Source: Halisarca cf. caerulea (lineage: Eukaryota; Porifera; Demospongiae; Chondrillida; Halisarcidae). From it: a stretch of DNA of 64,000 bases. The first letter of the stretch is position 1. The number at the start of each line of letters is the position of its first letter. The notes under the pieces are model-generated. The model ran no database searches. It was given only the letters and a program-made list of their open reading frames with translations, and was not told the origin of the DNA. The translations under genes and the position numbers were made by a program. Location: the NCBI GenBank assembly GCA_963170055.1, contig CAUJGJ010000444.1, forward strand, positions 7,865,618-7,929,617. Direction: 5' to 3'. Shown here in pieces: positions 366-64,000 of this stretch.

Positions 366-899
366 CTACACACACGCTCAAAAGAAAGTTACCACTTTAA
401 CAAAATGGCAGCCGCATGATATACCACAAATGAAAATAGCTGAAAAAACTGAGCAATGGGCTAATATAGAACTATTTGGCATAGCCAAAATGAGGAACCA
501 CATAGTGACACAAGTTGTGAGTTAGTATTGCGTACATGTGCCTTTTGTAAGAATCAGCTTTGATTCTGGAAGGTGGTGTGATTTTAGGCTAAATAATGCT
601 GCATCCCTTTCATTTCATGAATAAAATGTGTGGTAATCATTGGTTAAGCTATTCCAAATGTGTCCCAAAGTTAGGTCCTACCATCTTCAACATCAGAATT
701 CTGTCCATTGCATCTTACAATTAATTGCTCAGTGGATTGTAAATTTTACATTCTCTAGCATCGAAACCTATCACTAAACAACAAATTGTGATTGTCGCCA
801 TTCATTTGCTCTGCTGAGGAAAGACGCCATTCACAGGACAATTTATCTATATAATCCAGCATAGTACAAAGTTAAGTAACTGTTGAAACTACAACTACT
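366..899. other. No gene recognised
   Basis: AT-rich sequence with short open frames that lack any family motif. I see no element termini here. Confidence 0.5.
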
Positions 900-1195
900 A
901 TGCTGTCCTGCCCATATGTGCCTAGCCCTATGACTGTCTAGCTCCTTAAATGCCTAGCACAATGCCATCTAGACCTTTGCATGTCCATCCTCATGCCCAT
1001 CTAGCCCAATGTATGCCTAACCCTCTGTATGTCTATACCTATGTCTGTTCAGCCCTATGCAACAAACAACTCTACCTTGTTCCAGTGAATTTGCTCGATT
1101 TACAATTTTTCATCCCTACATCTTTTATCATTTTTAAATGTTTTTGTATGGTTCTTGTCTATGTACTTTTTATTTCTATTTTGAACATATACCTA
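900..1195. repeat. Degenerate copy of the fold-back repeat at 46.5-47.1 kb
   Basis: Contains diverged 14-16 bp units of the form TAGCCCTATGCATGTC. They are followed by the same tail as the 46.8-47.1 kb arm: 'aacaactctaccttgttcc', then 'atccctacatctttt' and 'tatggttcttgtc'. Only one arm is present, so it is a solo or half copy. Confidence 0.7.
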
Positions 1196-1569
1196 TAGAC
1201 CAACATATTATTCTTTACCCTTCCTTCAGCCAGTAATATAGTGGGAGCCTCACTGTGGCAGTCCCTTCCATCTTCGATCCGTGACTCCAGAAACACCAGA
1301 ATGTTCTCCCAAGCTACTCTTCACTATTTGAACTCGCTTGCATGATTCTTACATTAGCATGTCTTGCATGAACTTTGAATTCTTGACTCTCTTTTTCATT
1401 AAATGAATGACATTGCATGCCCTATTGTTTACATTTATTTCATTTCTCATTTTTTCCCCACCCTTTTCTGTTGTGTACTGTGTTCTTACAGGGTGCCCAG
1501 AATAGTAGCCCCTTGGCTAAAGGCTTCCCCTGTCAAAATAAGCTTACCTAACCTAACCTTATCTAACCC
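1196..1569. other. No gene recognised
   Basis: Short open frames without motifs. A few CTAACC units occur at 1543-1570 just before the LINE fragment; too few to call a telomeric tract. Confidence 0.5.
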
Positions 1570-2184
1570 AAGGACAGCAGGATTATAGTGGATCTCCCTA
1601 ACAGCCCTTACACCTTCCCCCAGAACATTGCTGTGACTGATGACCGTGCAGATATTGTTATTTGGAGCAGCTCCTCAATCCACCTGGTGAAGTTGACCAT
1701 CCTCTTTGAGACTGGCATTGAGGATGCAGCATCACGTAAACGTTCCAAGTACACAGAGCTTGTGGGGAGATGCACAAGGAATGCTGCGACTCTCACCACA
1801 GTTGAAGTTGGTTCGAGAGGGTTTGTCCATGCTCCCAGTTTCAACCAACTGTAACAAGATTGCGGATGCCAGCTCAAAGACAAGGAGGGAACTGGAGCGA
1901 GAGGTCATCCGCCAAGTCATCGAGGGATCATTCTGCATTTGGTGCCAGCCGAACTGGACTGAAAACAAATGACAGTTTTACCTAGTATTACTTTACCTTG
2001 CTGTGTCTACATGTCTCATTTTACTTAATATTCAATTTTTTGAGGCCCAACTTTAACTTTGCATGTTCTTCTGAATATATTTTGGCAGTGTTGGGACCAC
2101 CCTACCCACCTGTCACCTTTTAGTGTATCTATTTACATGCATGTACTTACCTGCAGTTCTTTTAAATAATAATAGTGACAAGTT

Positions 2185-2187
<3 letters not shown>
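1570..2187 (+). pseudogene. 5'-truncated LINE, restriction-like endonuclease tail (copy D)
   Basis: The translated sequence from about 1570 contains ADIVIWSSSS...HLVKLTILFETGIEDAA and then TVEVGSRGFV. This matches the C-terminal domain of the other LINE copies in the window, where the motif reads PDLVIW...LVELTIP, a PD-(D/E)XK-type nuclease signature typical of R2/R4/NeSL-class retrotransposons. The Glu of LVELT is Lys here and a frameshift follows near 1850, so the copy is dead. It ends in a 3' UTR leading into (GA)n. Everything upstream of the endonuclease is missing. Confidence 0.75.

Positions 2188-2240
<53 letters not shown>
2188..2240 (+). repeat. (GA)n tract joining LINE copies D and A
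   Basis: About 26 GA units follow the sequence 'aataataatagtgacaagttaaa', which recurs with small changes at the 3' end of the other copies. Copy A coding sequence begins immediately after the tract. Confidence 0.9.
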
Positions 2241-2244
<4 letters not shown>

Positions 2245-3952
2245 CCTACAGGAGTGTGCACCACAACAATAACCAATTTGCCCTTGAACACTATCATGCA
2301 CCTGCCCATTTCACCGACATCATCTCTAACTTACCCAAGTGTGCCAGCCTGGCACTTCAAGGATCTACCAGTAAGGGGTATGACTGACTCTTCATGGAGA
2401 CACCATTCCATTCATTGACAAATCTACCTTCTGTTTCCTTGGAGCACCCATCTCCATCGCTAACACCACAGCAGTGCAGAGAAGTGCTCTTCTTCAAAAG
2501 CTAGAGACCATGCTGAGGAAGGTTGACAACACCCTTCTCACCAGCCAACAGAAGCTGCATCTTTACAGCCATGCAATCTGCCCACGCTTGGTCTGGGACA
2601 TAGCCATCACCCAACTGTCACTATCCTGGGTGACAAAGAATCTTGAAGCCCTGGCAACAAGATTCCTCAAGCGCTGGGCAGGATTTACCCGCAGCGCTGC
2701 CACCCACCACCTGTACCTGCCTAAAAGCAGTGGTAGCCTCCATCTACCTTCCCTGACCACCATCTACAAAAAGACCAAGGCTGGACTGGCTGCTTCTCAG
2801 ATGACCTCACGTGACTCCACTGTGAGGTTTATCGCCACCAAATGCACCACATCAGAGAGGAAGTCAGCCAGTGTCGTCTTCAAGCCTCACCAGGAGGTAG
2901 TTGCGGCCATGCAAGAGGACCCTGGGGCCTCCCAACAACAGCTTGTCAGGTCGGTGAAGAGGATACAATCCACTGACAGCACCAGACACCTGGAGACCTA
3001 CAGACAACTCTCAGTGCAGGGTGACTTCTCCCATCGGTTTGATGACAGGGTATCCACCATCTGGGCTGAGGCACTGTGGGACCTGCCAGAGTGGGTGATG
3101 AAGTTCACCCTCAATGCAGCCCTAGACACCCTTCCCCACAATGCCAACCTTCACCTGTGGAAGAAGCTGCCCACACCAAATTGCCCTCTCTGTGCCAGCC
3201 GCCAGACACTGCTGCATGTGCTCAATCACTGTCCTGTGGCCCTCCACAACAGACGATACAATCGGAGACATGATGCTGTTGTGGAGCAGATATACGAATT
3301 CACCACCAAACATCTAAGCCCCAATCAGCAGATCACAGTGAACCTCGCCACCCATCACTACTGCTTCTCTGTTTCTTTCGCTGCCACCGACACCCAACCA
3401 GACATGGTCATCTGGAGCCAGTCTTGTATCCTCCTTGTTGAGCTGACCATTCCATATGAAACAACCATCGAAGATGCAGTAAGACAGATATGAGAAACTG
3501 CTAGCCGAGTGCTCCATCAAAGCCAAAGCCAACCTCATTACTATTGAAGTAGGCTCTCGGGGCTTCATCAACCTCCAGGGGCTGCAAGACCTGTACAAGG
3601 CACTCAACAACCCTTCCATCCAAGAATGCCGCGAGCTGGAGGTGTTGGTCAAGACTGTGTTGTACCATTCTCACCTCATCTGGTGCAAGCGCTACTGGCA
3701 GGAGCAGACTTGACTTTGTATAGGTTCAATGTAGCTGCAGGATTGCATGACTCTTATATTGCTGCATGATGTTGTATACATGCTAATATTGTCATCCCCT
3801 TCTTTTTATTTATTCCTTTTTTAATTTCTACTTAGGCCAGACTATGAACTGTGAATGTGTTTTTGTAGGACACATTTAGCAGGGTCTGGGGCACCTAAGA
3901 CCTCACATGTACCTTATTTCTTGTAATAATTATGGCTCATGTGCAGTGAAAA
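2241..3952 (+). pseudogene. 5'-truncated LINE with RT thumb, zinc knuckle and endonuclease (copy A)
   Basis: The copy opens inside the reverse transcriptase (AYRSVHH...FALEHYHAP), loses the catalytic YADD region, and is then open from about 2474 to 3493. In order it contains the RT thumb region (FLGAPISI...QKLHLYSHAICPRL), a CCHC knuckle CPLCASRQTLLHVLNHC at about 3180-3235, and the endonuclease motif PDMVIW...LVELTIP at 3400-3455. A frameshift near 3480 separates this from the end of the domain (TIEVGSRGFINL, then WCKRYW) at 3490-3713. The 3' UTR ends at (GA)n. Non-functional. Confidence 0.85.
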
Positions 3953-3980
3953 GACAGAGAGAGAGAGAGAGAGAGAGAGT
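3953..3980 (+). repeat. (GA)n tract joining LINE copies A and B
   Basis: About 13 GA units. The next base begins the 5' UTR of copy B (TTGCTATGGTAACAAAATGG), the same start that follows (GA)n at 13806. Confidence 0.9.
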
Positions 3981-4193
3981 TGCTATGGTAACAAAATGGA
4001 CATTTGGGCCTAAAGTGTAGTCAAAGAATAAACTCCAAAGAGGGCTCTCAGGTCAAGTGTGTGTGTTTTTAACAAGTTACAGCTGCTTTGAACACCCAGC
4101 GCTACTCCTGGTGATATCAATTTGGGTTTTCCTTCATCACTTTGCCCGTTTGAGGTTTACTGTTTACTGTTCTTCATAACCTCAACAACAAAC

Positions 4194-4480
4194 ATGGAAG
4201 TTACAACTCTCCGAGCCTGCCCCTTCTGTAATAAGAGATATAAGAAGCTTGGAAATCATCTGAAAAGCTGTCCATTAAGGAATGGTAGGGAGTATCAGCA
4301 TCTACTTTCCATAACAACTCTTTCTAAGAAAATATCTACCCAGAAGAAGACCTGTCCAAATTGTAATAAACCCTTCAGTCGGTTGGACACTCATCTTAGG
4401 AACAGTACCATTTGTAAGTCATTTTGTAGCAATAGTGTTCCATCATGTGCAACTCATCCAATGACTAATTCATTCCCACT
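4194..4480 (+). pseudogene. N-terminal zinc-finger region of LINE copy B
   Basis: From the ATG at 4194 (MEVTTLRACPFCNKRYKKL) there are two similar fingers. The first is CPFCN...NHLKSC and the second CPNCNKPFSRLDTHL...C, each C-x2-C...H-x(3-5)-C. Such fingers bind target DNA in R2-type elements; that role is inferred here. An ATG at 4122 is in the same frame, but the sequence before 4194 reads as hydrophobic filler and aligns with the 5' UTR of copy H, so 4194 is preferred. Confidence 0.7.
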
Positions 4481-4497
4481 CACCAATCCTCTTGACC

Positions 4498-9614: not shown

Positions 9615-10417
9615 CCCTTAAACGTTCACGCGCCACTTGAGTGGCGCAAGCCATAAAACCGTAAAAGTTCCATTTTATTATTTCCGATTTTATTAGATTT
9701 GTTCGATATGGCGATTGGAAACTACTATTACAGTTTCATAGCAATACATTCAGGTATAAAGATCACAACACAGACTGGCAGATTTCTGTTATACAAAGGA
9801 GTACGGTACAATTATGCGAGAATATAACAAATTTACTATGTTATACGGAGTCAACTTAAAGATTACGGCTGCACAAAACACGGAGAAGAACAAAAATGCG
9901 CAGAAATGGATCGGTTCGTCCTTGTTGCAGTCCGCACAGCAGCGGAAGGTCCTCATTTGGTGGTCCCGTGGAAGGCAGACACTGCAGCCTTGATTTTTAA
10001 ATCCTTTGCAGGGAGTTTCGATCACAAAATCGTGCAGGAGGCTGCATCGACTGATCGACGGCCTTTCCTCTTTCTGGAGTTGTGGTGAGACATCAACTCC
10101 TTGGACAGCTCCAGGCCATATTACTTCAATGTTATCTTGAAGCAGGCAGGAGATTCCCGGGTCAGAACGTTGGGATTGATGATGGCGAGGCCCACGAGAA
10201 GTTAACAAGCGATTCGAGTTTAAAAAACTCGTGGGCCGCCTACGGCCCTGGAAACTCAAATCGCTTGGAAATCGTTGTTATTGACTAAAATAATACTTCG
10301 AAGAACTCTTCTGGTCGAAAAGACTCTTTGCTGATAAAAGCAGGAGCAGACGAATGAATTTCACCAAAATATAGCCAAAAGATTACGTACCGACTTCGCG
10401 TCCGCCATGTTGTTGAC

Positions 10418-10454
<37 letters not shown>

Positions 10455-10923
10455 ACATCGTTACGGACGTTACGGACACTTCCGGTGAAAGTAAAAACAA
10501 TATAGGGCCGCCTTCTGGTGGCCCAACAAGGCGCATTCGCTATCTTTTTGATTTACGGCTACTGGATGGACTCCAGAGGGACTTTTCTTGTATTGTTCCA
10601 TGTCTAACTGTGTCTTTGATATGTGAATGTGTATTTCAGTAAATTTTGTTACCGCATTTGAAAGTTTACTGTGCATACGTACAGTAACTAAGTACGCCTA
10701 CCGTTTTCGAGGCCATTGCGCACAAAAGCAGGAGAAGAGAACGAAGTTGTAGCTAAGCGAAGAACAGTAGAGTAGTTCTGTAAACGTTGGAGAAGACAAA
10801 AGCTTTCCCAGTCAAATGAATCGGCTGGAAACCGCTGTCAAGTATGGTGCTGACATTGTGCCACTCAAGTGGCGCGTGAACGTTTACGCAAATTTTCGGA
10901 ATGGGAATCTGAACAATTAAGGG
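9615..10923. mobile_element. TTAA-flanked piggyBac-like non-autonomous element
   Basis: Flanked by TTAA on both sides (9611-9614 and 10924-10927) with termini CCCTTAA and TTAAGGG. Just inside each end lies the palindrome CGCCACTTGAGTGGCG next to ACGTTCACG. The related sequence at about 26430 reads 'ctttaatggccgggagcc', an empty version of this site ('cttTTAA[element]TTAAcggctgggagcc'), which supports insertion at a single TTAA. No transposase is encoded. TTAA specificity and CCC/GGG ends are hallmarks of piggyBac-type transposition. It is itself interrupted by a hairpin element at 10206-10524. Confidence 0.85.
10206..10524 (-). mobile_element. Hairpin-ended MITE, family 2 (copy 1)
   Basis: The left end (10206-10266) folds as CAAGCGATTCGAG...CTCAAATCGCTTG enclosing a GGGCCGCC...GGCCC stem. 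The right end (10504-10524) is the stem GGGCCGCC...GGTGGCCC followed inward by 'tattgtttttactttcac'. A (TA)n tract (10421-10451) lies between. AA follows the outer base on both sides. Same layout as 17065-17406, in inverse orientation, and as the family 1 and 3 elements. Confidence 0.85.
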
Positions 10924-16216: not shown

Positions 16217-17064
16217 TTAACCTCTTAAGGCCCGTTAGCCTATTTAGTGGCTCTAAACTCTGAATACCATTAAGTCCCGCGGGTTGCCTATATCGCGCAA
16301 TCACAAAGAAATTTATATGGCTAGATAGAGTGAAGGAAGCTTAATAAAACTGCCAATTTTTAACGTCATACACTTAGGTATGAACAGTACAGAAAGCTCT
16401 AAAAATTGTACTAAAAATGCAAGTGATCATAAAGTCACGCAATTATACAAACAGTTTACAGAGATATACAAACAAATAAAATGGCTGCTTGAAGATCCGC
16501 AATATTCATTGGTCTGTTTTTTTGGCTGAATAGGAGCTACCTGCAGTAAATCCTTAAACAGTCCACTGGACTAAGAGCAATACGCCGTTCTGAACAGCAA
16601 GATTCACAATAAAGTTAGTCCGACGTGTCTCCGTGTAGATTTTGCACTGTTATTGTTTTTAGTGTAACAATTTGCATTGTAACGATTTTCTAGGCATATA
16701 ATAGTATGCAGTAGAACATATAAAGACAATTGTGACCATTTTCTATGCAAAGCAGGCCGAAAAAAGGTGTCACGTAGCTATAATGCTACTATTCCAACTG
16801 ACGAGTAAGTGTGTGAGTAAAATGCGTACGAATTTTACCTAATTGGTTAGCGAAGGGAAGGCATGGGCAGTTAACAATACACTATTATATTATTAATATG
16901 GACCATATATAGACTCTCACTTAGAACAACAGCACTGTTCAGCATTAATTAAACACAGACAACTGTGCACCTTATGCACCCAAATTGCATCATCATTCTG
17001 GTCACCCTGAGCCCTATGCACCCATACCAAGTAGATGTGTCGAAATGGATTTTTCCCCGTTTTT
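16217..17064. other. One possible TTAA element end, otherwise no gene
   Basis: 16218-16255 reads TTAACCTCTTAAGGCCCG then CCTATTTAGTGG, similar to the ends of the TTAA-flanked elements. I did not find a matching right end. The rest has only short, motif-free open frames. Confidence 0.4.
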
Positions 17065-17131
17065 GGGCTGCCGGAAGGCGGCCCTATATTGTTTTTACTT
17101 TCACTGGAAGTGTCTGGAACGTCCGGAACGA

Positions 17132-17197
<66 letters not shown>

Positions 17198-17406
17198 AAC
17201 AACATGGCGGACGCGAAGTCGGTACGTAATCTTTCGGCTATATTTTGGTAATATTCATTCGTCTGCTCCTGCTTTTATCAGCAAAGAGTCTTTTCGACCA
17301 GAAGAGTTCTTCGAAGTATTATTTTAGTCAATAACAATGATTTCCAAGCGATTCGAGTTTCCAGGGCCGTAGGCAGCCTACGAGTTTTTTAAATTCGAAT
17401 CGCTTG
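17065..17406 (+). mobile_element. Hairpin-ended MITE, family 2 (copy 2)
   Basis: End A is the stem GGGCTGCCGGAAGGCGGCCC, followed by 'tatattgtttttactttcac' and 'ggaagtgtctggaacgtcc'. The middle is (AT)n at 17137-17191, then 'caacatggcggacgcgaagtcgg'. End B folds as CAAGCGATTCGAG...TTCGAATCGCTTG around a GGGCCGTAGGCAGCC stem. It is flanked by T-rich sequence (TTTTT before, TTT after). The sequence is the inverse of copy 1 at 10206-10524. Open frames across the (AT)n are artefacts. Confidence 0.88.
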
Positions 17407-17544
17407 TTTCTATATGCATGTGGGACATGTCCAAAATCTCACTGCGTGCTAATTGGCTGGAAGTTTTGACTTTGATGTCTACAAATTATGTGAGATTCGT
17501 GTGACATTCTGTGACGTTTTAGCTTAGGAACAAGTCAAGTCAAT

Positions 17545-17826
17545 AGACCATATGCAATTCCACGCCCACCGCCCACGATAATGAGGTCACTGGAGGTTAA
17601 TGGTGAAGGCGCGCCAGACTCGCCTATTCTAATGTATGGGGAATTGTTGTTTGAAGATCAAAATCGTTCTGTTACGAGACGCTCGACGACGGTATCGCTC
17701 TCAAAGCTGGTCATATTGTGATTTAGGTAGTCTCAAAGGATTTGGTGTGTATAAAATGTATAGATGCGGTCAATTCGCAGCGACAAGGCTGATTTTTCGT
17801 GTGTGAGAACCCCCTAAACACGTTTA
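17545..17826 (+). repeat. Left terminal inverted repeat of the ISL2EU element
   Basis: Begins AGACCATATGCAATTCC and ends CCCCTAAACACGTTTA. Inverse of 20562-20843 with only a handful of differences. Confidence 0.9.
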
Positions 17827-17909
17827 GTTGTAAATTAGGCTAACTGTATGTCTATATCTTCTAAGATTGAACTCGTATAGTCAGTAAATTTTGTTCATTG
17901 AGAGTAGAA

Positions 17910-18866
17910 ATGTCGGTAAACACTAAATTCTGCCCATCTTCGGCTAATGTCGGAGAGTTGAAGGTTTTTCTCAAGCAACACGGTCTTAGCAACGCTGGGA
18001 ACAAGCAAGAACTCGTTCAAAGGTGCTGCGATTATCTCAAAACGGAGGAATTGGAAGAAGAGATCGATGCTAGAGCATTTGTTGACTTTCTCGTTGAAAG
18101 AGCACCTGGTTTTGATGTTCTTCCTATGCAGTGGACTTCAGAGGGACTTCCAGTTATGCATGAACATACTGTATGCTCATTCCTCAAGGCAAAGGGTGCA
18201 TACACGAAAAACTACAGAACTGGTTTGCGACTGTGCCGATGTGGCCACCTCTCACACATACAGAAAAGTGCCAGTCAGGTACCGTTGTTTATCCGGGCTC
18301 GTTGCAGGCCAACAATGAAGAGGCAACCACCACATTATGAATGCTTCATACAACTTGCAGAGGTGATGGCATGCAATGAGGATGAATCTACGAAATTAGA
18401 GATCGAAGGTGCCAATTGCCACTGTCCTGCTGGAGAGACACAGAGCTGCCTGCATGTGGAACCATGCGGTATTTACATAAGTGAGCAATATCTGTTCCTT
18501 GGGGCATCACCTGATGGAATTGTCCATGGTGAGGATAGTGGTGCAAAGCTGGTGGAAGTGAAGTGCCCTTTTAAGCACCGCGACAAGACCATTGAAGAAG
18601 CATGCCATGACCCAACGTTCTGCATTGAGTTAAAGGATGGCGTATTCCAGCTAAAGAGACACCACCACTACTATTACCAAGTTACTGGTCAGTTGGGTAT
18701 TACTGGTGTATCTACTGGATACTTTGTGGTATGGACTCAGGCAGATATTTTCATTGAGGAAATAGTACTGGACAAAGATGTTTGGAGCACCATGCAGGAT
18801 ACACTCAAACATTTTTATTATGATTGTTTTGGTTCCAAAATTTTAGATAGACTATGTACTATGTAA
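17910..18866 (+). CDS. SAP-domain YqaJ-type exonuclease of the ISL2EU element
   Basis: 318-residue protein from the ATG at 17910; the frame is open 12 bases further upstream without an ATG. An N-terminal SAP DNA-binding motif (VGELKVFLKQHGL...NKQELVQRC, residues ~10-45) is followed by a YqaJ-like nuclease. Its core reads FLGASPDGIV (~residues 198-207) and LVEVKCPFKH (~216-225), giving the Asp and Glu-x-Lys of a PD-(D/E)XK site. A Cys-rich stretch (CHCPAGETQSC) lies just before. The role in transposition, probably DNA end processing, is inferred from its fixed pairing with the transposase in this superfamily. No frameshift seen. Confidence 0.85.
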   Translation: MSVNTKFCPSSANVGELKVFLKQHGLSNAGNKQELVQRCCDYLKTEELEEEIDARAFVDFLVERAPGFDVLPMQWTSEGLPVMHEHTVCSFLKAKGAYTKNYRTGLRLCRCGHLSHIQKSASQVPLFIRARCRPTMKRQPPHYECFIQLAEVMACNEDESTKLEIEGANCHCPAGETQSCLHVEPCGIYISEQYLFLGASPDGIVHGEDSGAKLVEVKCPFKHRDKTIEEACHDPTFCIELKDGVFQLKRHHHYYYQVTGQLGITGVSTGYFVVWTQADIFIEEIVLDKDVWSTMQDTLKHFYYDCFGSKILDRLCTM

Positions 18867-18957
18867 CTTTTGATCCTGCATGTACAGTATTCCAGTTATT
18901 ATTATTCAAAGTTACGTTAACTTTACCTGTTTATACGCATAGAATATATGTGCAATG

Positions 18958-20445
18958 TTATGACTTAATCAATGGTGCCTGTAAATTACACAGAGAACAT
19001 GCAATAATCACCATATCATCTAAAACTAGTTTGTTTGTGCGATTTGGCTGTGTTTGCTGAAAAATTTTGAAATCTTTTAACCTTTTTATTGCATTTTCTA
19101 CTTTGATGCGAACAGTAGCTATTGCTCGTGTTTGTGATCCATCCTGTCCACTTAATTTGGCTGAAGACCGTAGGAAAGATGGTATAGTAAGGAAAGCTCT
19201 TTGTTTTGCTAACAAATCACATATTGTGAATCCCCTGTCTGCCAGTATGCGTTGGCCTGGCAGTAGATTGTCCAAAAAAGTACTATTTTCAACAATAAAT
19301 CTGTCACTTGCGTTTCCTGAAAATCCTGCTGATATGTATGTAAATACACCGGTGAATGGATCAATGCTAACCAGGTACTTCACTGTGCTATGACTTTTGT
19401 AGTCAGACCAGGATGATTTCTGTGTTGAGAGGTTGCTGGGCCTCTCAATGAATATCTCTGTCCTGTCAATTATGCCTACTGTGTTAGGCATCATTGAATA
19501 AGGATACTCTGTAGGCCCTATTGTTGTTTTTGGCCATTGAATGAGTGCTTCCAGCTGACGAGCAAGTAGGGGGATCCATTGACTAAGTGTGCGCGAAACC
19601 GTAGATTGGTCCACAAGAAAGCGGATGCCTAGATCCTCTTGTAAAAAGCCACAGCGGATTCTCATTAGCGTAAGGAGCAGCCTCTGAGAGTTAGAGAGGT
19701 GGCAATAACGAGTCAAGCCAATAGGCTCCTTGGATGTACCAGCAGTTTCGGGTAGAACAGGGACAAGCCACTCTAATAGAGTTGAGAACTGTGCATGGCT
19801 CAGTCCTGTATAAAAATGCATGGCATTACCATCCAGTAGGGTCACATTCAATCTTTGCCGTGTTGAGCGCAGACTATGGATGTCTTGGGTAAGCTGTGCT
19901 ACAGTCCTTTGTAAGGCCTCAATCTGTTTCTGCATATCTTCTGTTTTTTTATCAGACTCTGGAATCTGCAGCGTGGCTTGGAAGGTGTCTTCAGAAACAT
20001 TCCAATCTTCTTCCGTTTCAATCGGCTGTAATACTTTCTCCTGCATGGTAACCTTCTGCAATACTCTCCTGACCTTAGGAGGTGGGGTTGTCACATCTAA
20101 GTCATGACTTGTTGGTCGCTTAAATAGCACTGGTATGCGGTTTGGATCAGCCCTTGATGGTCCTACAAAATCTTTGTAATGGATGTTGCAAATAACAGAT
20201 CCTGCTGTTGGTGTCCAAGTTTTCCCCCTTTCTCCACTTCTAGTGAGATTGATCTGCTTGACCACAGTCTTCTTCACAGCATCTGGCATAACTTCAATGG
20301 TATGTAGACTGAGTAAATCTTTCGATTTGGGACAATCTGTCGCCGTTAATGCACTACACTCGCACAGTCTTTTCCCACTAACATCTTCTGGACACCGTCC
20401 TTTGCGATTTGAACAACCCCAAACACAGCACTGTCGCCGAGACAT
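18958..20445 (-). CDS. THAP-domain DDE transposase of the ISL2EU element
   Basis: 495-residue protein from the ATG at 20445 (MSRRQCCVWGCSNRKGRC). The N-terminal C2CH THAP finger uses CVWGC and ICNIHY with the downstream Phe and Pro-rich region. It is followed by a helical segment and a DDE_Tnp_4-type catalytic domain: first Asp in GIIDRTEIFIERP, second Asp in ILADRGFTI, Glu in KVENAIKRLKDF. Sequence between the first and second Asp (HSTVKYLVSIDPFTGVFTYIS) is typical of this transposase family. The frame is intact. It would bind the terminal repeats and cut them. It converges on the YqaJ gene with a 91-base gap. Confidence 0.88.
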   Translation of the reverse strand: MSRRQCCVWGCSNRKGRCPEDVSGKRLCECSALTATDCPKSKDLLSLHTIEVMPDAVKKTVVKQINLTRSGERGKTWTPTAGSVICNIHYKDFVGPSRADPNRIPVLFKRPTSHDLDVTTPPPKVRRVLQKVTMQEKVLQPIETEEDWNVSEDTFQATLQIPESDKKTEDMQKQIEALQRTVAQLTQDIHSLRSTRQRLNVTLLDGNAMHFYTGLSHAQFSTLLEWLVPVLPETAGTSKEPIGLTRYCHLSNSQRLLLTLMRIRCGFLQEDLGIRFLVDQSTVSRTLSQWIPLLARQLEALIQWPKTTIGPTEYPYSMMPNTVGIIDRTEIFIERPSNLSTQKSSWSDYKSHSTVKYLVSIDPFTGVFTYISAGFSGNASDRFIVENSTFLDNLLPGQRILADRGFTICDLLAKQRAFLTIPSFLRSSAKLSGQDGSQTRAIATVRIKVENAIKRLKDFKIFQQTQPNRTNKLVLDDMVIIACSLCNLQAPLIKS

Positions 20446-20561
20446 TTCAAAATCCACTACAGAATACTCTAAAATGATTGCCTATCCTTCACAGCCAAAT
20501 CTATACGGCAGAATTGGGACAAATACCTCGATGAAATAGTCCAATTTACAACTATTATTAG

Positions 20562-20843
20562 TAAACGTGTTTAGGGGGTTCTCACACACGAAAAATCAGC
20601 CTTGTTGCTGCGAATTGACCGCATCTATACATTTTATACACACCAAATCCTTTGAGACTACCTAAATCACAATATGACCAGCTTTGAGAGCGATACCGTC
20701 GTCGAGCGTCTCGTAACAGAACGATTTTGATCTTCAAACAACAATTCCCCATACATTAGAATAGGCGAGTCTGGCGCGCCTTCACCGTTGACCTCCAGTG
20801 ACCTCATTATCGTGGGCGGTGGGCGTGGAATTGCATATGGTCT
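20562..20843 (-). repeat. Right terminal inverted repeat of the ISL2EU element
   Basis: Inverse of 17545-17826. It contains the probable promoter region for the minus-strand transposase. Confidence 0.9.
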
Positions 20844-21700
20844 ATTGTGCTGTGTGGCCATTCATTGTATGTTTGGTGCTTTGTAAGCCTTTATACGAGG
20901 ATAAATACTGCCTAAGCTTGTTAGACACGATTGCGGACTGCAGTACTTTCAAAATTTGATTGTTTGTCAGGTACAACCAGTGGTACGTTCAAGGTGTTTG
21001 GAAGGCTGCATAAAGCTGATTCATTACACTCTGAGGTATTTAGGCTATAGTGAAATAGCCTTTGCTATGCAGATGTAAGGTTCTTAACTATGATTACGCA
21101 CCTTGTTCTTCGATATTGGCGATCAGCGCTGAATGACTCATTCACTTTAAATTTCCTCGATTGCCGACTTTCTTCGGTAATCTGCCTTCAAATTCTTTGC
21201 CCCTTGCAAAAGAGATCTTTCATGTCGCTGAGTAAATCAGCGGAACAACGTAAGAACCTTCCAAGTGTTTTATTGTTATCGGTATTGAAAGCTTCAACTT
21301 CTCACTGATGGGGGTTTAGATGTACAAATCCTTTATCATCCTGAGTATATTTGCTGAATATCTCAAAACTATATTAATAACCAAAGCCCCAATCGGTAGA
21401 TATTAAATATTTTTATTAGGAACCATTCAGTCGTTGTCCTGTGCCTGTAGGCCCACTTTCTGATTCACTTGCGTCCAAAACTGCTTAACGTACCTACTTG
21501 GTAAATCGCCAAATACAGAACGATCGGGAAGGAAATAAGGAAGAAAATTAGCTTCATGTGTACCTTAGGTATGTTTATACTGCCTCAGAACCATATCTTG
21601 GCCATTCTAAAATATATTGCGAAGAAATAAAGAGATTTGCAAACAGTAGTTTGCCGACTTTGGGAAGCCATTGAAGTGTAAATGGACATGTCCCACATGT

Positions 21701-29302: not shown

Positions 29303-29722
29303 TTTGCTGAAAATGGCTTCCAAAACGGAAGTTCAGAGAGCTCTATCTCACAAACAACAATGATTTCACAACGGGGACTTTGCCAGCAAGGGTTTTATGA
29401 TGATTACTTTAATTTAAAGGCCACTTGTATTTTGGTGACAGTGTTCCTTTAAATGAACTGTTGTAACATTAAATAGTCATTAGAATGACTATTTTATGCT
29501 CAGTACTCCTTAAGTACACCAAACAGAAGAAAAATGGGGGTAGTTTCTGTCAACTTTAGGGCCATTTTAAACACTGCTTAGAGGTGGACAAGTCACAACT
29601 GCATGCACCTAGCTATAGAGTGATCTAGTGATAGTGTTATGTGCAAGCATGTGCATGGAATGTGAAACAGCATGTGACTCAAGCTGGAAGGCAGTTCTGT
29701 TCCACCATAGACTTAATTGAAA
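29303..29722. other. No gene recognised
   Basis: Contains 'cgttaaatagtcat...gtacaccaaa', similar to 34240-34330 (tail of the CRCAGG element there), but no ends. Confidence 0.4.
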
Positions 29723-29780
29723 CAAGTAATTCGAGTTAAAAACTCGTGGGGGCTGCCGCCCCACGCACTCGAATCACTTG
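29723..29780 (-). repeat. End B hairpin of the DUF7869 element
   Basis: A compound stem with outer arms CAAGTAATTCGAG / CTCGAATCACTTG and inner stem GGGGCTGCCGCCCC. About 70 bases further in, at 29848-29900, is a second inverted repeat 'attgttttgaaaacaattgcc' / its complement. A minus-strand AATAAA lies at 29827-29833 and could end the transcript. Confidence 0.8.
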
Positions 29781-30284
29781 CAAAGCATTGGAGTGTAAGT
29801 GCACAGCTGAACATTCATTGAACATACTGTTTATTGTAACTGGACGATTGTTTTGAAAACAATTGCCATATTTGGCAATTGTTTTCAAAACAATTCCTGT
29901 AACTCATTCCTGTATAAATTTATACTTCTCTATTACTAGTATATAAATTCTCGATTATAAGACTTTTCTTCAAATCCATATTATATATATATATATATAT
30001 GTGATGGCATAGAATAAAAATGGAAGATTGTGCACACTATCACAATTCTCATATTATGTTTGATTCTGCACATTAAACCATTACTCTACCTGCTTACAAA
30101 ATTTCAGACCATAACTAAACATTTTCATACACAAACCAAGCACATCAATATCGGGTATTTTGCATAGAGTACAAATGGAAGAACTGGCAATGCATGTATG
30201 AAGCAAGACAAAAAATCATACACAGTATATTAAACAGCAGCAAAATAAATAAAAAGCATAGTGATAAAGAAATAACAATGTTAG

Positions 30285-32504
30285 CTACTTCATACAGTCA
30301 GGCCAGCGATCTTGTGGAATAAAGTTTGTGCACATTTGACGCAAATGAGCCAGCTTAGTGGAGGTTAGTGTCCGTATTCTACCCAAGTGGGTATATGTCT
30401 CGTTCGAAGTGGGAAAAGTATCAAAATCAGCATCCATTCCTTTATTAAGTTTCAGAGTTGTAGGTCGAGCAACTCCTTCATAGCAGTGGTCTCGTATTGA
30501 CATCATAGCATTTCCTGTAGTTGGATTCCTGATAACAAAAAAATCATGGAGATCACGAATACCTGAGAGCTTTGAATACTTTTCACTGACTTTATCCCTC
30601 CAGTTATGGATTAGAGTACCATTGTCTATGATAGCTGTTATACTATCAGATTGTGACATTACTTCTGTCAATTCCCTTGTGTTGAAGACATCAGAGGAGT
30701 TATAAGCCTTAGAGGTTACTGAAAACAGACGATCAACATCAAATTTGGTGTGGCCTGCGATAAGAAAGGAGAAGCGCAAGTAATCAACAACTTTGTGCTG
30801 CACCAACTCCATCCCCCATGCCATTAAGAATGCATTTTTGTTGGTGCTCCCTGTGTTGTCAAGAAAAATGTGAATTCTGCGTGTCCATGGAGGCAATGTT
30901 CCACTATCATTGATAAAGTGTGTCATTAGGGACATTGTGTGGTCGGTATTTTTCGGGCCAACAGTTTCATCGAAGATGTAAATGGTCGAGTGCCCTTCAC
31001 GGTGGTCAACGACTCCAAAGATGTCATGCGATAATTTTTGGAGATAGTAGGTACTGCCAGGTTGTGGAGACTGTCCCCAGTAAGGGACAAGCTTTTGCAT
31101 CTGATAGTCAATGCTAAGTGTTGCAGTAAAGTTGTGCTGTAATTGGAGAAGTGCTTCATTCTCCTGCTGATTGCGATTCTCTTTCGACTCCAGTGCTTGA
31201 ATTTCTACCCATTCCTTCTTGCATCGAGTGGTAGTTTCAATGTAGTATTTGTGCGATTTTCGAGCATGTTCCCTATGAGTTTTCAAATCATCATTAAGCA
31301 TTGAAATTTCAGCTTCAAGATCCAACTGCTGTCTTTCACCAGCAGAACCCGTTTGACGGATTCTGTTCAATGTTGTCTGCTTGGCTTGAATCAGTTCTTT
31401 CTTTTTAGCACAAAAGTCACAGTAGTCAAGTTTGTGAGGATATATGGAATATTTTGGTCTCTCTGCTTTAAGCCAAGTCGATGCTGAATAATTTGATATA
31501 GTGTCTCTTTGCCTCTCACCTTGCACTTGATTGAACACCCCAACTATTGATTGCTGAAATCGTTGTTCATAATTTGTCACTCCTGCCTTTGGAGTCTGAA
31601 TGGTACGAAATTTAGGCAAGAGAAAATGTGTAGCTGAAGAGCTATCTGCACTTCTTCCGTTGGGTTGAGAATTGGCATCAATGAAGTCAAGGAAGTCTCG
31701 TTTCGCATCAACTTTAGCCGCATGAGAAGCCCGTCCAGCCAGTCCATGACGGTCATGCGGGTAACGCACTTCAACCATGTCTGACTGACTTTGTGTCTTC
31801 CACCAAGCCACAAATGACATGCTGCATCCCTCTGGCATAACGACGTATTCACCAAGACGTTCAACTTCTACTTGAGATTTGGTCATTGATCGAAGAGGTT
31901 CACTGTGTAGTCGTCTCTTTATAGCTCTTTGCCGTGCAAGTCGTTGGAATGAGATTCCCAGTGCATGATGTACACAACCACAGCAAAATATGTAGTTACC
32001 AAGAGTATCAAAGATATTACTACGTAACCAATCGTTTTGCTTAACCAAATCTCTGTACTGCTGTGTTTCTGGTTGCTTTGGGTGTGGGTTGATCCATTTT
32101 CTCCGCTTCAGCTCACTGCCTTGCCTTTTAAGTCCTTTAAATGTCACAGCATACTTTTGCAAAACGGGTGCACAGCTTTGGCATACATTGTTATTCCACG
32201 AACTAGACTGAAAGTGGCTGGACATAGCAGGGTTGTTGGATAACTCACTGTCTTCAAATGAATGTTGGAGATCAGAAGAAAAGCGGTAGACTTTCCGTCC
32301 TTTTCCTTTCAGAAAAGACTGTTTCCTTTTAGATCTTCTTTCTTGTCTGGTAGAAGGAGCCGTTACATTTTCAGACGTTTCAGCTTGTTCAAAACTTGCT
32401 TCACTTGACTCATCGACTGAATAATCACTGTAACTGCTACTAGAGCCATCTGAGAGGCTTCCCTCACTCTGGGAATCGCTACAAAGTCGCTTGTGTGCGT
32501 CCAT
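30285..32504 (-). CDS. DUF7869-like protein, candidate transposase of the hairpin-ended element
   Basis: 739 residues from the ATG at 32504 (MDAHKRLCSDSQSEG), intact. A Ser/Asp/Glu-rich disordered N-terminus and basic stretch (to ~residue 75) precede Cys pairs that look zinc-binding (CQSC ~108, CCGC ~174, CDFC ~361). A charged helical/coiled stretch lies at ~365-455. The conserved C-terminal half carries SIDYQMQKL (~465), IFLDNTGSTNKNAF (~550) and GHTKFDVDRLFS (~590). The spacing of these acidic/His motifs resembles an RNase H-like nuclease core, but that is my reading. I associate the motifs with the Pfam family of unknown function DUF7869, seen in many copies in cnidarian and sponge genomes. 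No other gene shares the element. Confidence 0.7.
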   Translation of the reverse strand: MDAHKRLCSDSQSEGSLSDGSSSSYSDYSVDESSEASFEQAETSENVTAPSTRQERRSKRKQSFLKGKGRKVYRFSSDLQHSFEDSELSNNPAMSSHFQSSSWNNNVCQSCAPVLQKYAVTFKGLKRQGSELKRRKWINPHPKQPETQQYRDLVKQNDWLRSNIFDTLGNYIFCCGCVHHALGISFQRLARQRAIKRRLHSEPLRSMTKSQVEVERLGEYVVMPEGCSMSFVAWWKTQSQSDMVEVRYPHDRHGLAGRASHAAKVDAKRDFLDFIDANSQPNGRSADSSSATHFLLPKFRTIQTPKAGVTNYEQRFQQSIVGVFNQVQGERQRDTISNYSASTWLKAERPKYSIYPHKLDYCDFCAKKKELIQAKQTTLNRIRQTGSAGERQQLDLEAEISMLNDDLKTHREHARKSHKYYIETTTRCKKEWVEIQALESKENRNQQENEALLQLQHNFTATLSIDYQMQKLVPYWGQSPQPGSTYYLQKLSHDIFGVVDHREGHSTIYIFDETVGPKNTDHTMSLMTHFINDSGTLPPWTRRIHIFLDNTGSTNKNAFLMAWGMELVQHKVVDYLRFSFLIAGHTKFDVDRLFSVTSKAYNSSDVFNTRELTEVMSQSDSITAIIDNGTLIHNWRDKVSEKYSKLSGIRDLHDFFVIRNPTTGNAMMSIRDHCYEGVARPTTLKLNKGMDADFDTFPTSNETYTHLGRIRTLTSTKLAHLRQMCTNFIPQDRWPDCMK

Positions 32505-32793
32505 TTTCAGAATAAGTTGCCCGCCTTGTGTACTGCCATTGTATGGGCTCTGCTAACCATATTTGGTATGAAGCCAGCCAAGGCTGTGCTAAATATAGCC
32601 ACCAAATCCTAGAGCTCCCTGTCGTTCTGTTCATAAGATATGACGTTACAATTCACACTCATTTTATGCTATTTTTAGAGCTCCCTCTCGCGAAATAACA
32701 AAACGTGCATAAATTTCCATTTTTACTATATGCGCTCACATATATATATATCGGACGAGCGTTACACACCGGAAGTCCAAATGAAAACAATAT

Positions 32794-32816
32794 AGGGGCT
32801 GCCACAGGCAGCCCCT
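32794..32816 (-). repeat. End A hairpin of the DUF7869 element
   Basis: AGGGGCTGCC - ACA - GGCAGCCCCT, a perfect 10-bp stem. It is followed inward by the conserved 'atattgttttcatttggact' and 'ccggtgtgtaacgctcgtccg'. Confidence 0.8.
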
Positions 32817-33592
32817 AAAAATGGAGGTAGAAATCTCTGCTTTTGACTTTGAATCATGGTGCTTATCAGAATTAAACCCTCAGAATTGAATCTTGGAGCA
32901 CTGTGCATCGGTCCTTTTGGTTTATGTGCCATGAAGTCTTGTAACTGGGAACCTTGTTTTTGGGCAGAAATTACACATCTTGTAAAGATTTGATATGTGT
33001 GGCCTTCCTATGTTGATTGGAGATTGAGCAGTACCTGTACACTGGCAATGTGTGGGGAGGTAGAGAGAGGCTCTTTGATGAAGATAAAGGCCGCAATGGA
33101 TCCATTTATTTTGGAACAATATGCAGCATCATCACTGCCTTTTAATTTTGGATATCATGACGCAAAGAAACTAGAAGACATTGGAGATCTACAATGGACT
33201 ATGTAATGGAAGACTAATAGTGGGAAATTTGAAATCTGGAGCAATAAAAAGCAAAGTCATGCCCATTTTTGACCCACAATTTCTCTCCAGCACATGTTGC
33301 AGGGTATGTAATCATGTTACTTCCTATTAAAATACCTTATATAAGCACAACATGAAAAGTTTATAATATGCACATACATGCATGCAATGTTTTGCATGTA
33401 TACTATGTACTGTATGTCATATTTACAAAAGGGTAATGCCTGGTGGTCAATTTATCATAACTGTAATCAATTTTCCTACGACTATAGGTACAGGTACAGG
33501 ACTATGTTGCTTCCGTTCCCTGGGCCAGCAATAGGACCACAGTCAATCGAGGAGATAGTAATTTTCCAACAACTAACAGAACTAAGAAGGAA
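32817..33592. other. No gene recognised
   Basis: Short motif-free open frames only. Confidence 0.4.
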
Positions 33593-35992: not shown

Positions 35993-36274
35993 TTAAAAGG
36001 TACGGACTGACCTTCTTCCTGTGGATATCTTATTTACATTGACAGAAGGTGAGATGTTCGCATTTAATACATTTTAACACAGTGTGAAGATGATAAGTAG
36101 TAGCATGCATACGCATCTGAGTGCATCAAATTAGTGTACATGTAAGCACTGTTTCATATGCAGGTGAGGCGATAATGGTAATGCATGTCTTTATGTGCAC
36201 CCATTGTAGTTACATCGATTGATAATGTCATTGATTGTACACCTAAGAGACAATGTCCTTTAGTTGGAGGATGA

Positions 36275-36530
36275 AGAAACAAAAGGACGTGGAAGAGAAG
36301 AAATGCAAGGAAGCAGAAGAGAAGAAACGAAAGGAAGTGGAAGAGCAGAAATGAAATGAAGCTGAAGAGAAGAAATGAAAGGAAGTAGAAGAGAAGAAAC
36401 GAAAGGAAGCCGAAGAGAAGAAACAAAAGGATTAGGAAGAGAAGAAATGAAGAAAGCAGAAGAGAAGAAACGTAAGGAAGAGGAAGAGAAGAAATGAAAG
36501 GGAGTAGTAGAGAAGAAACGACAGGAAATG
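36275..36530 (+). repeat. Purine-rich ~30-bp tandem repeat (former coiled-coil coding?)
   Basis: About eight units of 'gaagagaagaaacgaaaggaa' type. Read on the plus strand they encode a decapeptide-periodic charged helix (EEKKRKEAEEKKRKEV) broken by several TGA/TAG codons. It may be a degraded coiled-coil exon or simply a minisatellite. Confidence 0.6.
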
Positions 36531-36561
36531 GATGGACTGAGTAGGGAATGAAAAAGACACA

Positions 36562-39028: not shown

Positions 39029-39169
39029 CCCTTTTCACATGCACGCGAGGAACCGGTTCCATAACCGATTAAGGAACCGATTCTCGAGTTCTGACCCCTG
39101 GCGCGTTCACACGCGCTTGATTGTGTTGTGAATTATGATGCAATTGTTGCCCATGGTCAATGAGAAAAA

Positions 39170-40044
39170 ATGGCGTTCTCGGCGGCGACTGCATTGACAA
39201 CAGTGATTTATTTTGCATTGGTTTGGTTGAGGATGCAAAGAAAACAACGTACTGCAAGGATGAAAGCATTGAAAATGGCCAGAAGAAGACGTTGGGCTGC
39301 TCTCTGTGCAGAGCAAGAAGATTTACACCAGATTTTGACAGGTTTTTATACTCGGCGACTTTTTCTCAGTACACTGCAGCGTAGATCAATGTGGATGATG
39401 CCCAGAAGTACAGATTTTAGCAATAACATTATTCTATCGTGGGATGATGTACAATGGAAGGCCAATTTTCGCGTGAACAAAGCAACTTATCGCTATTTGT
39501 GTGACGCACTGCGAGGGTGTTTACAGAAGAGGAACTCCATCAGAGCTGCAATAACTGTGGAAAAGTGGGTAGCCATCACCTTGTGGAGGCTAGGGACCAA
39601 CCAGGAGTACAGGTCACTAGCACATCTATTCGGGGTGGGAACATCATCCGTGTGTGTCATTGTCCATGAAGTGTATGCTGCTATAGTTCAATGTCTCATG
39701 GACAAATACATTAGAATACCAAAGGGTGAACAGGCTGTTGAAGTGATTAAGGGATTTAAAGAGGTTTGGGGTTTCCCCCAATGTTTTGGAGCTGTCGATG
39801 GCTCACATATTCCTGTTATGGCACCTCATGGCCGTGCAACGGAATACTACAACCGCAAGGGTTTTTATTCTATTGTGTTGCAAGCACTGGTAAACCATGA
39901 ATATCTATTCATGAACACATATGTTGGATGGCCAGGCAGTGTACATGATGCTCGTATTCTCAGCAATTCTGACGTTTTTAGGGGCTGCCGCAGGCAGCCC
40001 CTATATTGTTTTCATTTGGACTTCCGGTGTGTAACGCTCGTCCG

Positions 40045-40076
<32 letters not shown>

Positions 40077-40778
40077 TTTAAAGAAAAGTCTTATAATAGA
40101 GAATTTATATAATAGTAATAGAGAAGTATGAATTTATACAGAAATGAGTTATAGGAATTGTTTTGAAAACAATTGCCATATTTTCAAAACAATCGTCCAG
40201 TTACAATAAACAGTATGTTCAATGAATGTTCAGCTGTGCACTAACCCTTCAATGTTTTGCAAGTAATTCGAGTGTGTGGGGCGGCAGCCCCCACGAGTTT
40301 TTAACTCGAATTACTTGTTGCCATGGGAGAATCAGGAACACTGTCACCCAGTGCAGTGAAAGTGATTTCTGGGTAACATGTCCCTGTGGTTATTCTTGGG
40401 GACCCTGCCTACCCTTTACTTCCCTGGCTGATGAAGCCCTTTACTGGATCCGGCTTAAGTGACAGACAGAGGAGGTTTAATTATCGACTGAGCAGAGCAC
40501 GTGTTGTCGTTGAATGTGCTATTGGTCGACTGAAAGGCAGATGGAGGTCGCTATTGAAACGCAGTGATGTCCGCATAGAATTTATGTCCACCGTAGTCAC
40601 AAGTTGTTGCATTCTGCACAATTTGTGTGAGATTCACAAGGACGGCTTTGATGAGCAGTGGCTGGATGAGGAGGTGAGAACCTTGACAATCAGCAACAAT
40701 AGTTCTAATCCAGCTCAACATTCCTCAAGTGCAGGAGCCATTAGAAATGCTCTAACATCTTACTTTTGTACTCACTAA
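39170..40778 (+). pseudogene. Harbinger-2 DDE transposase, interrupted by a hairpin-ended MITE
   Basis: The first part (ATG 39170 to 39979) contains GAVDGSHIPVMAP (first Asp) and ends ILSNSDVF. The MITE 39980-40317 follows. The second part contains VVILGDPAYPLLPWL (second Asp) and VVECAIGRLKGRW (Glu), ending at 40778. Deleting the MITE and one TT restores the frame (VF-AMGESGTL). One in-frame TAA (40374-40376) still lies between, so the gene carries a second, independent lesion. In working relatives the protein cuts the element ends with the Myb-like partner. Confidence 0.88.
39980..40317 (+). mobile_element. Hairpin-ended MITE, family 1, inside the Harbinger-2 transposase
   Basis: 338 bp. 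End A hairpin AGGGGCTGCC...GGCAGCCCCT and end B CAAGTAATTCGAG...CTCGAATTACTTG (inverse orientation relative to the DUF7869 element). An (AT)n tract joins the parts that flank the gene in the 3.1-kb element. The target is TTTTT; TT follows the other end. It encodes nothing. Confidence 0.92.
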
Positions 40779-58683: not shown

Positions 58684-58968
58684 AGGACAGGCAGCCCCTA
58701 TATTGTTTTCATTTGGACTTCTGGTGTGTAACATTTGTCCGATATATATATATATATAATATGGATTTGAAGAAAAGTCTTACAATAGAGAATTTATATA
58801 AAAGTAATAGAGAAGTGTAATTTATACAGGAATGAGTTATACAAATTGTTTTGAAAACAATTGCCATGTTCAATGAATGTTCAGCTGTGCACCTACACTC
58901 CAATGCTTTGCAAGTGATTTGAGTGCGTGGGGCGGCAGCCCCCACAAGTTTTTAACTTAAATTACTTG
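58684..58968 (+). mobile_element. Hairpin-ended MITE, family 1
   Basis: End A with a deleted arm (AGGACAGGCAGCCCCT), then 'tatattgttttcatttggac', an (AT)n tract, and end B CAAGTGATTTGAG...TTAAATTACTTG around GGGGCGGCAGCCCC. TT flanks both sides. Confidence 0.85.
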
Positions 58969-59467
58969 TTTTTCATCCAAAGTTAAACCACAAACTTTGG
59001 GGACATGTCGGGAATGGAGCATGCTATAAAAATCTACCATGGTGAAACTTATCTTTACCTATTGTGATCTAAATGCCGCGACATGGCTCCTCTACACACG
59101 CATTTAGATAACTAGGTTTTGGAAAAAATCTCAGTCACTTAAGAAGTCTCTTTCTCACTGTTTGTCACAAGGCTGTCACGCGGTATGATGACGTCACACA
59201 ACGAACGTGGTAAAATCGATGCTCCTTCCAACACAAACGAATATTCTTAAAAGCATTTTGAAAACACTTAATGCGCATATGAAGACGATATTCGATACAA
59301 TTCTCTTCTGTTTGAGAACAACAAGGCCTATCATTCAGGCGACTTCGTATTCTTAAACGTGACTAAGGCATGTACATCAGTAAAACATGTTAGTATTAAA
59401 TCAAATTCCTTTGCAAACCACACAACACCCCTCGATTTCCTGAAAGGGACATGTTATACCTGTTAAT
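58969..59467 (-). mobile_element. Right half of a CRCAGG element
   Basis: Aligns to 51655-52151 ('aaaccacaaactttggggacatgtc', 'aaggctgtcacg', 'gaaagggacatgttatacctg'). It has been cut on the left by the hairpin-ended MITE. Confidence 0.65.
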
Positions 59468-63558: not shown

Positions 63559-64000
63559 CAGGTGTGACATGTGCACATGTGCACTGTTATCAAAATGGCC
63601 ACCCTAAAGTCGGCTGAAATCAGCCCCCACTTTTCTTGCGTTTAGTGTATTGATGGTATACAAAAAGAATGCAAAACATCGATATGACTATTAATTTTAA
63701 TGCTGCAACAGTTCACTTAACTTTGTTGTTAATACTTCGCAAAGCCGAAAAAACAACCACAGATTCAGACCTTAACAAGTAATTCGAGTTAAAAACTCGT
63801 GGGGGCTGCTGCCCCCACGCACTCGAATCACTTGCAAAGCATTGGAGTGTAAATGCACAGCTGAACATTCATTGAACATACTGTTTATTGTAACTGGACG
63901 ATTGTTTTGAAAACAATTGCCATATTTGGCAATTGTTTTCAAAACAATTCCTATAACTCATCCTGTATAAATTCATACTTCTCTATTACTATTATATAAA
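63559..64000 (+). mobile_element. CRCAGG element start, with a hairpin-ended MITE nested at 63776
   Basis: Starts GCAGGTGTGACATGTGC, then 'caaaatggccaccctaaagtcggctgaaatca' as in 50357. At 63775 the sequence 'agattcagacctt' is interrupted by the family 1 end B. The element runs off the window. Confidence 0.7.
63776..64000 (-). mobile_element. Hairpin-ended element, family 1, cut by window edge
   Basis: End B CAAGTAATTCGAG...CTCGAATCACTTG around GGGGGCTGCTGCCCCC, then sequence almost identical to 29781-29946. It cannot be told whether this is a short MITE or another 3-kb copy with the gene. Confidence 0.88.

Follow-up and report, generated by a model that had tools for sequence, protein, structure and literature searches.

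Helitron2 elements, as defined in the part of PMC3627910 that treats the group, possess a hairpin at each end, with the 5' asymmetric repeat lying inside the 5' hairpin and its partner located 20-30 bp from the 3' end. Section 11 of the same source gives the target-site duplications of Sola2-type elements as 4 bp and AT-rich (AWWT, ATAT, AAAT, ATTT), and those of Zator and ISAzo13 are given as 3 bp in the relevant part of PMC10045372. The locus described here lies at 29723-32816 of a 64,000-nucleotide stretch of the Halisarca cf. caerulea genome (contig CAUJGJ010000444.1), referred to below as the window, and carries one gene, for a protein with a DUF7869 domain, between two hairpin ends. We put at roughly 93% the probability that two mobile elements without relation to each other are nested here, a DUF7869 element having entered an element of the Helitron2 type.

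Structure of the nested locus

The stretch opens with CAAG at 29723 and closes with AGCCCCT at 32816. Its coordinates, its hairpin ends and its single gene of 739 residues, all reported in a first-pass annotation of the window, were confirmed by open reading frame, Pfam and folding analyses. The two outer parts, both on the minus strand, match the two halves of a 338 bp element found elsewhere in the window (39980-40317), as that annotation had recognised. The 3' part, or end B (29721..30000), comprising part of the (TA)n tract, the GGCAGCCCC subterminal repeat and the 3' hairpin, exhibited 91% identity to this short copy, taken as 39975-40319. The 5' part, or end A (32740..32821), in which the hairpin AGGGGCTGCC/GGCAGCCCCT adjoins TTTTT and is followed by the remainder of the (TA)n tract, exhibited 96% identity.

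Excision of 30001-32739 together with one ATAT restored a complete short element, covering 345 of 345 positions at 91.6% identity. The two copies differ mainly in the sequence between the (AT)n tracts, which the long copy has gained and the short copy has not lost; the proposal that the short copy is the long one with its middle removed was therefore rejected. The inserted sequence (30001..32739, minus strand) is a 2739-bp cut-and-paste element that holds one gene and is bounded by terminal inverted repeats of the form GTG...CAC. Its ends are exact, being delimited by identical 4-bp flanks and by comparison with a second copy (L002), which has unrelated flanks and is similar over only 2748 bp, enclosed by the (AT)n tracts. 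The inverted repeat at the 3' end occupies 30001..30035 (minus strand; GTGATGGCATAGAATAAAAATGGAAG, read inward from the end) and that at the 5' end 32705..32739 (minus strand; GTGAGCGCATATAGTAAAAATGGAA). The target-site duplication, ATAT, is present at 29997..30000 beside the 3' end and at 32740..32743 beside the 5' end.

The DUF7869 element and its protein

A protein search of the source genome (194 Mb in 454 contigs) yielded at least 70 DUF7869 matches, with 61 of 153 candidates scored, which were grouped into 30 loci. Three of these (L018, L027 and L029) repeat others (L003, L012 and L009), leaving 27 distinct loci. Both ends were resolved for 18 elements, one of them (L003) through an inferred pairing with L064, which lies 6.2 kb upstream on the same strand. 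L024 and L025 have a common left flank and may derive from a single event, and the 3' end of L028 runs into N letters. Across approximately 2.74 kb, four copies (L004-L007) exhibited 99.6-99.9% mutual identity, which stops abruptly at the edges where unrelated flanking sequence begins; the close likeness of copies that retain open frames points to recent movement, and such copies provide material for an activity test.

In the window family the inverted repeats at the element edges read GTGAGCGCATATAGTAAAAATGG; distant lineages have GTGGCAGTCGAG or GTGGCAGGCGCAT. The pattern of the window family's repeats gave 18 genome matches, of which 17 fell at DUF7869 copies (one through the pairing of L064 with L003) and one at the lone locus L061; the reversed control pattern gave no genome match. 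Identical 4-bp flanks were observed for all 18 resolved elements, as ATAT in 15 and as AATT (L003 with L064), ATGT (L008) and AGTT (L015) in one each. The length of the duplication is 4 bp, because ATGT and AGTT are non-palindromic. A TA duplication as in Tc1/mariner, which the ATAT flanks at first permitted, was discarded once AGTT, ATGT and AATT had fixed this length. L004 lies within a tandem repeat, and the exact empty site is visible in four adjacent units.

The flanks of 17 resolved elements (L003 was left out) were searched for hairpin ends over 500 bp per side. At six loci (L010, L015, L016, L019, L024 and L025) the sequence ends early on one or both sides, but at each of them one side could be read for 330 bp or more and contained neither end. 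Of the 17, the window copy was the one element flanked on both sides by the ends of the window family. The remaining 16 lie outside these ends, and when a sister family described below is taken into account, 13 of the 17 lie in neither family; the first-pass annotation had itself named such copies as telling against its proposal. Special targeting of TA microsatellites was considered and rejected, as 6 of 17 rebuilt empty sites fell in alternating AT runs of at least 12, against 32% (200/629) of the ATAT sites in the window.

The 739-residue protein is encoded at 30285..32504 on the minus strand, with the DUF7869 domain at residues 488-674 (E = 4.4e-25). The predicted model contains an RNase H-like core in which D466, D549 and D591 occupy RNase H positions. 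Among 60 sequences these residues were conserved in 60, 59 and 60, respectively, and the nuclease core that had been suspected from acidic and histidine motifs thus gains support from the model. PF07592, a DDE family that we take to be that of Zator and ISAzo13, matched 9 of 60 relatives at E ≤0.1 (best 3.4e-7). In four of the five relatives shown, its positions of approximately 136-267 align over the DUF7869 stretch, and one of the five scored above the curated cut-off; the window protein itself gave no PF07592 match. A search of PDB sequences with the DUF7869 protein led nowhere, the viral fold library gave no match with E <0.001, and Foldseek returned one weak match, to IstA. Pattern searches for relatives gave 10 matches among viral contigs and 32 among contigs of bacterial and archaeal genomes, none of which was confirmed. 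A C2HC zinc finger (PF01530) is present at the end of some DUF7869 proteins (14/60, including P0091, P0099, P0101 and P0108) and was not found in that of the window.

As judged from the model and the conserved residues, the protein is very probably an enzyme of mobility built around a nuclease core of the RNase H-like kind, with DUF7869 most likely serving as catalytic domain of a DDD transposase; we infer catalytic roles for D466, D549 and D591. A Pfam family of unknown function would thereby gain a likely role in cut-and-paste transposition, as the catalytic part of an enzyme whose element ends and target site are defined, and genomes with many annotated DUF7869 'host genes' may well harbour these transposons.

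The hairpin-ended element and its Rep-helicase relative

The short copy (39975..40319, plus strand) was identified by alignment, folding and profile search as an uninterrupted copy representing the state before insertion. On folding, its end A formed a hairpin with the stem AGGGGCTGCC/GGCAGCCCCT and its end B a long hairpin containing an inner stem. Genome-wide, the A-end pattern gave 625 matches with up to two mismatches and the B-end pattern 701 with up to one, and neither reversed control gave any. Hundreds of matches against none for the controls place the hairpin ends beyond chance. Of 30 short-element copies, 28 have a tract of five T residues at the 5' end. Helitron2 elements insert next to T without a duplication; no obvious duplication was apparent by eye in the flanks of these 30 copies, where the T tract leaves the junction and the exact 5' terminus ambiguous.

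The short copy lies within a DDE_Tnp_4 gene (window 39164-40778), which it splits, the profile stopping at position 69 and restarting at 77. The Helitron2-type element occurs twice more in the window, at 58688-58970 and at 63774-64000, the latter truncated by the window end.

Among the loci read for longer copies, L081-L083 proved to be ordinary short copies, L080 diverges from the short copy beyond its (TA)n tract, and L079 led to an element encoding a Rep-helicase. In this element (C191:5533-15147) the two ends of the window family enclose 9.6 kb. End A exhibited 98.9% identity over 87 bp and end B 88.5% over 253 columns, and the short element aligns with its first 87 bp and last 233 bp. A 1556-residue open frame carries Helitron_like_N (PF14214, 2.2e-28) and PIF1 helicase (PF05970, 1.1e-30) domains; this result rests on one gene-bearing long copy, and the Rep domain gave 119 matches in the genome. 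A second open frame of 408 residues (L084 7487-8713), without a Pfam match, resembles by eye the single-strand-binding (RPA-like) proteins of some Helitrons.

A longer copy with a Rep-helicase was a further finding that the first-pass annotation had named as telling against its proposal. The autonomous and non-autonomous relation that it envisaged probably exists, with the 9.6-kb Rep-helicase element rather than the DUF7869 copy as the autonomous partner, and the Rep-helicase would mobilise the short copies.

The outer element fits the Helitron2 group as published in PMC3627910. Terminal hairpins are present at both ends on folding of the short copy. The 5' hairpin is made from the 5' asymmetric repeat AGGGGCTGCC, and the matching GGCAGCCCC is situated approximately 26 nt from the 3' end (CTTG), directly upstream of the 3' hairpin. 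A T adjoins the 5' end, and between these same ends the longer copy has coding sequence for Rep and PIF1 helicase domains. Nothing essential was seen to differ, the 5-T tract leaving the exact 5' terminus unfixed. The claim of a new hairpin-ended transposon group is thereby removed.

Two other features of the window are separate from these elements. At 17541-20847, inverted repeats of 293 bp (98%) surround genes for DDE_Tnp_4 and SAP/YqaJ proteins, in a layout resembling that of ISL2EU elements. At 36259-36556 there is a purine-rich tandem array with a 24-bp unit, present in approximately ten copies in register.

Alternative accounts and comparison with known systems

The first-pass annotation proposed that the DUF7869 protein mobilises the hairpin-ended element, the short copy being an internal deletion derivative. 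The long and short copies do have both ends in common and differ between the (AT)n tracts. The (TA)n tract of a second, sister Helitron2-like repeat houses three further resolved DUF7869 elements (L010, L012 and L013), in the same orientation. The left end of this repeat is a hairpin of the GGGCCGC/GCGGCCC type with 74% identity to end A, and uninterrupted copies are present in the window at 17060-17408 and at about 10204-10529. L020 is probably another insertion of this kind, its right end being unresolved. With the window copy, an A-type end thus stands 5' of the gene in five of five cases, for which the chance is approximately 1 in 16. These associations weigh against the nested insertion of two unrelated elements. 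Four of 17 elements in such repeats nevertheless fits the supply of ATAT, as 75 to 92 of the 615 ATAT sites in the window lie there (P ~0.14-0.24). Moreover, L010, L012 and L013 resemble one another at 90-97% in their flanks, and have DUF7869 elements that are 65% alike or unalignable; these are therefore separate insertions of different lineages in one repeat family, and not one copied composite. Nesting in the reverse sense was seen in L010, where the window's short element (85%) lies at gene-strand 4050-4435, inside the DUF7869 element at 691-4496.

The gene lies between inverted repeats and target duplications of its own, and the outer element is whole once the insert is taken out; the proposal that the DUF7869 protein moves the hairpin-ended element is not supported. 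That it is a mobility gene at all, as first proposed, remains very probable from the RNase H-like core, the conserved D residues and the PF07592 matches of relatives. The rejoined outer element, the 4-bp duplications, the copies elsewhere (13 of 17 in neither repeat) and the Rep-helicase encoded between the window family's ends jointly refute, in our reading, the internal deletion account, which we regard as highly improbable. Helitrons capture genes, and the position of the gene between Helitron ends would also agree with a passenger acquired during rolling-circle replication and now travelling along. Exact GTG...CAC ends flanked by ATAT on either side, and an outer element left whole when the insert is removed, show a transposition event instead, and of 17 tested elements 1 is enclosed by the two ends of the window family; capture is likewise very improbable. 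Once formed by insertion, the nested composite may have moved jointly.

Under nested insertion, the outer element would be a non-autonomous Helitron2-type rolling-circle element of approximately 338 bp, present in several hundred copies and moved by the Rep-helicase of longer relatives. The inner would be an autonomous cut-and-paste transposon of 2739 bp with the DUF7869 DDD transposase as its sole gene. This protein would bind the GTG...CAC inverted repeats, excise the element and join it to 4-bp staggered ANNT targets, chiefly ATAT, the outer element having supplied such a target here in its (TA)n tract.

The inner element may be an established Sola2 transposon (Sola superfamily), with DUF7869 as the Sola2 transposase under its Pfam name, which we consider rather probable. 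The DUF7869 model contains a DDD core, and Sola enzymes are DDD transposases, as Bao et al. (2009) reportedly found. The likeness to Sola2 extends to inverted repeats and to 4-bp AT-rich duplications, and is one of description, not of protein sequence. The fold matches listed included no Sola enzyme, which is uninformative either way. Of the 18 targets, 16 (15 ATAT, one AATT) fit the AWWT given for Sola2 in section 11 of PMC3627910, whereas AGTT and ATGT fit ANNT alone and are broader. The DDE similarity, moreover, is to PF07592 and not to a Sola model.

Alternatively, the DUF7869 elements could form an unnamed DDD superfamily with a catalytic core related to ISAzo13/Zator and 4-bp ANNT duplications, an account that we find possible but doubtful. 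PF07592 similarity over the DUF7869 stretch of some relatives links them to Zator/ISAzo13, but all 18 elements duplicate 4 bp and not the 3 bp given in PMC10045372. The match to the Sola2 target site speaks against this account. In the literature searched, no paper named DUF7869 or PF25273, which carries little weight because transposon papers seldom use Pfam names; on Sola2 the same literature yielded target-site data only. More tentative still, and unlikely in our estimation, is a fuller definition of such a group as a eukaryotic cut-and-paste superfamily. Its elements would combine GTG...CAC ends and 4-bp ANNT duplications with a single protein of ~550-800 residues, in which a long helix precedes a catalytic core shared with the prokaryotic ISAzo13 family, and would land repeatedly in Helitron2-type (TA)n tracts.

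MuTAnT Mutator-like elements (PMC4486113) resemble the inner element in their insertion into (TA)n tracts, but have 9-bp duplications and a mudrA-type enzyme, whereas the DUF7869 elements exhibited no (TA)n excess over the ATAT expectation. The inner element is classed here as a DDD cut-and-paste transposon, with superfamily membership by protein not claimed; by target site, on this comparison, the nearest named group is Sola2.
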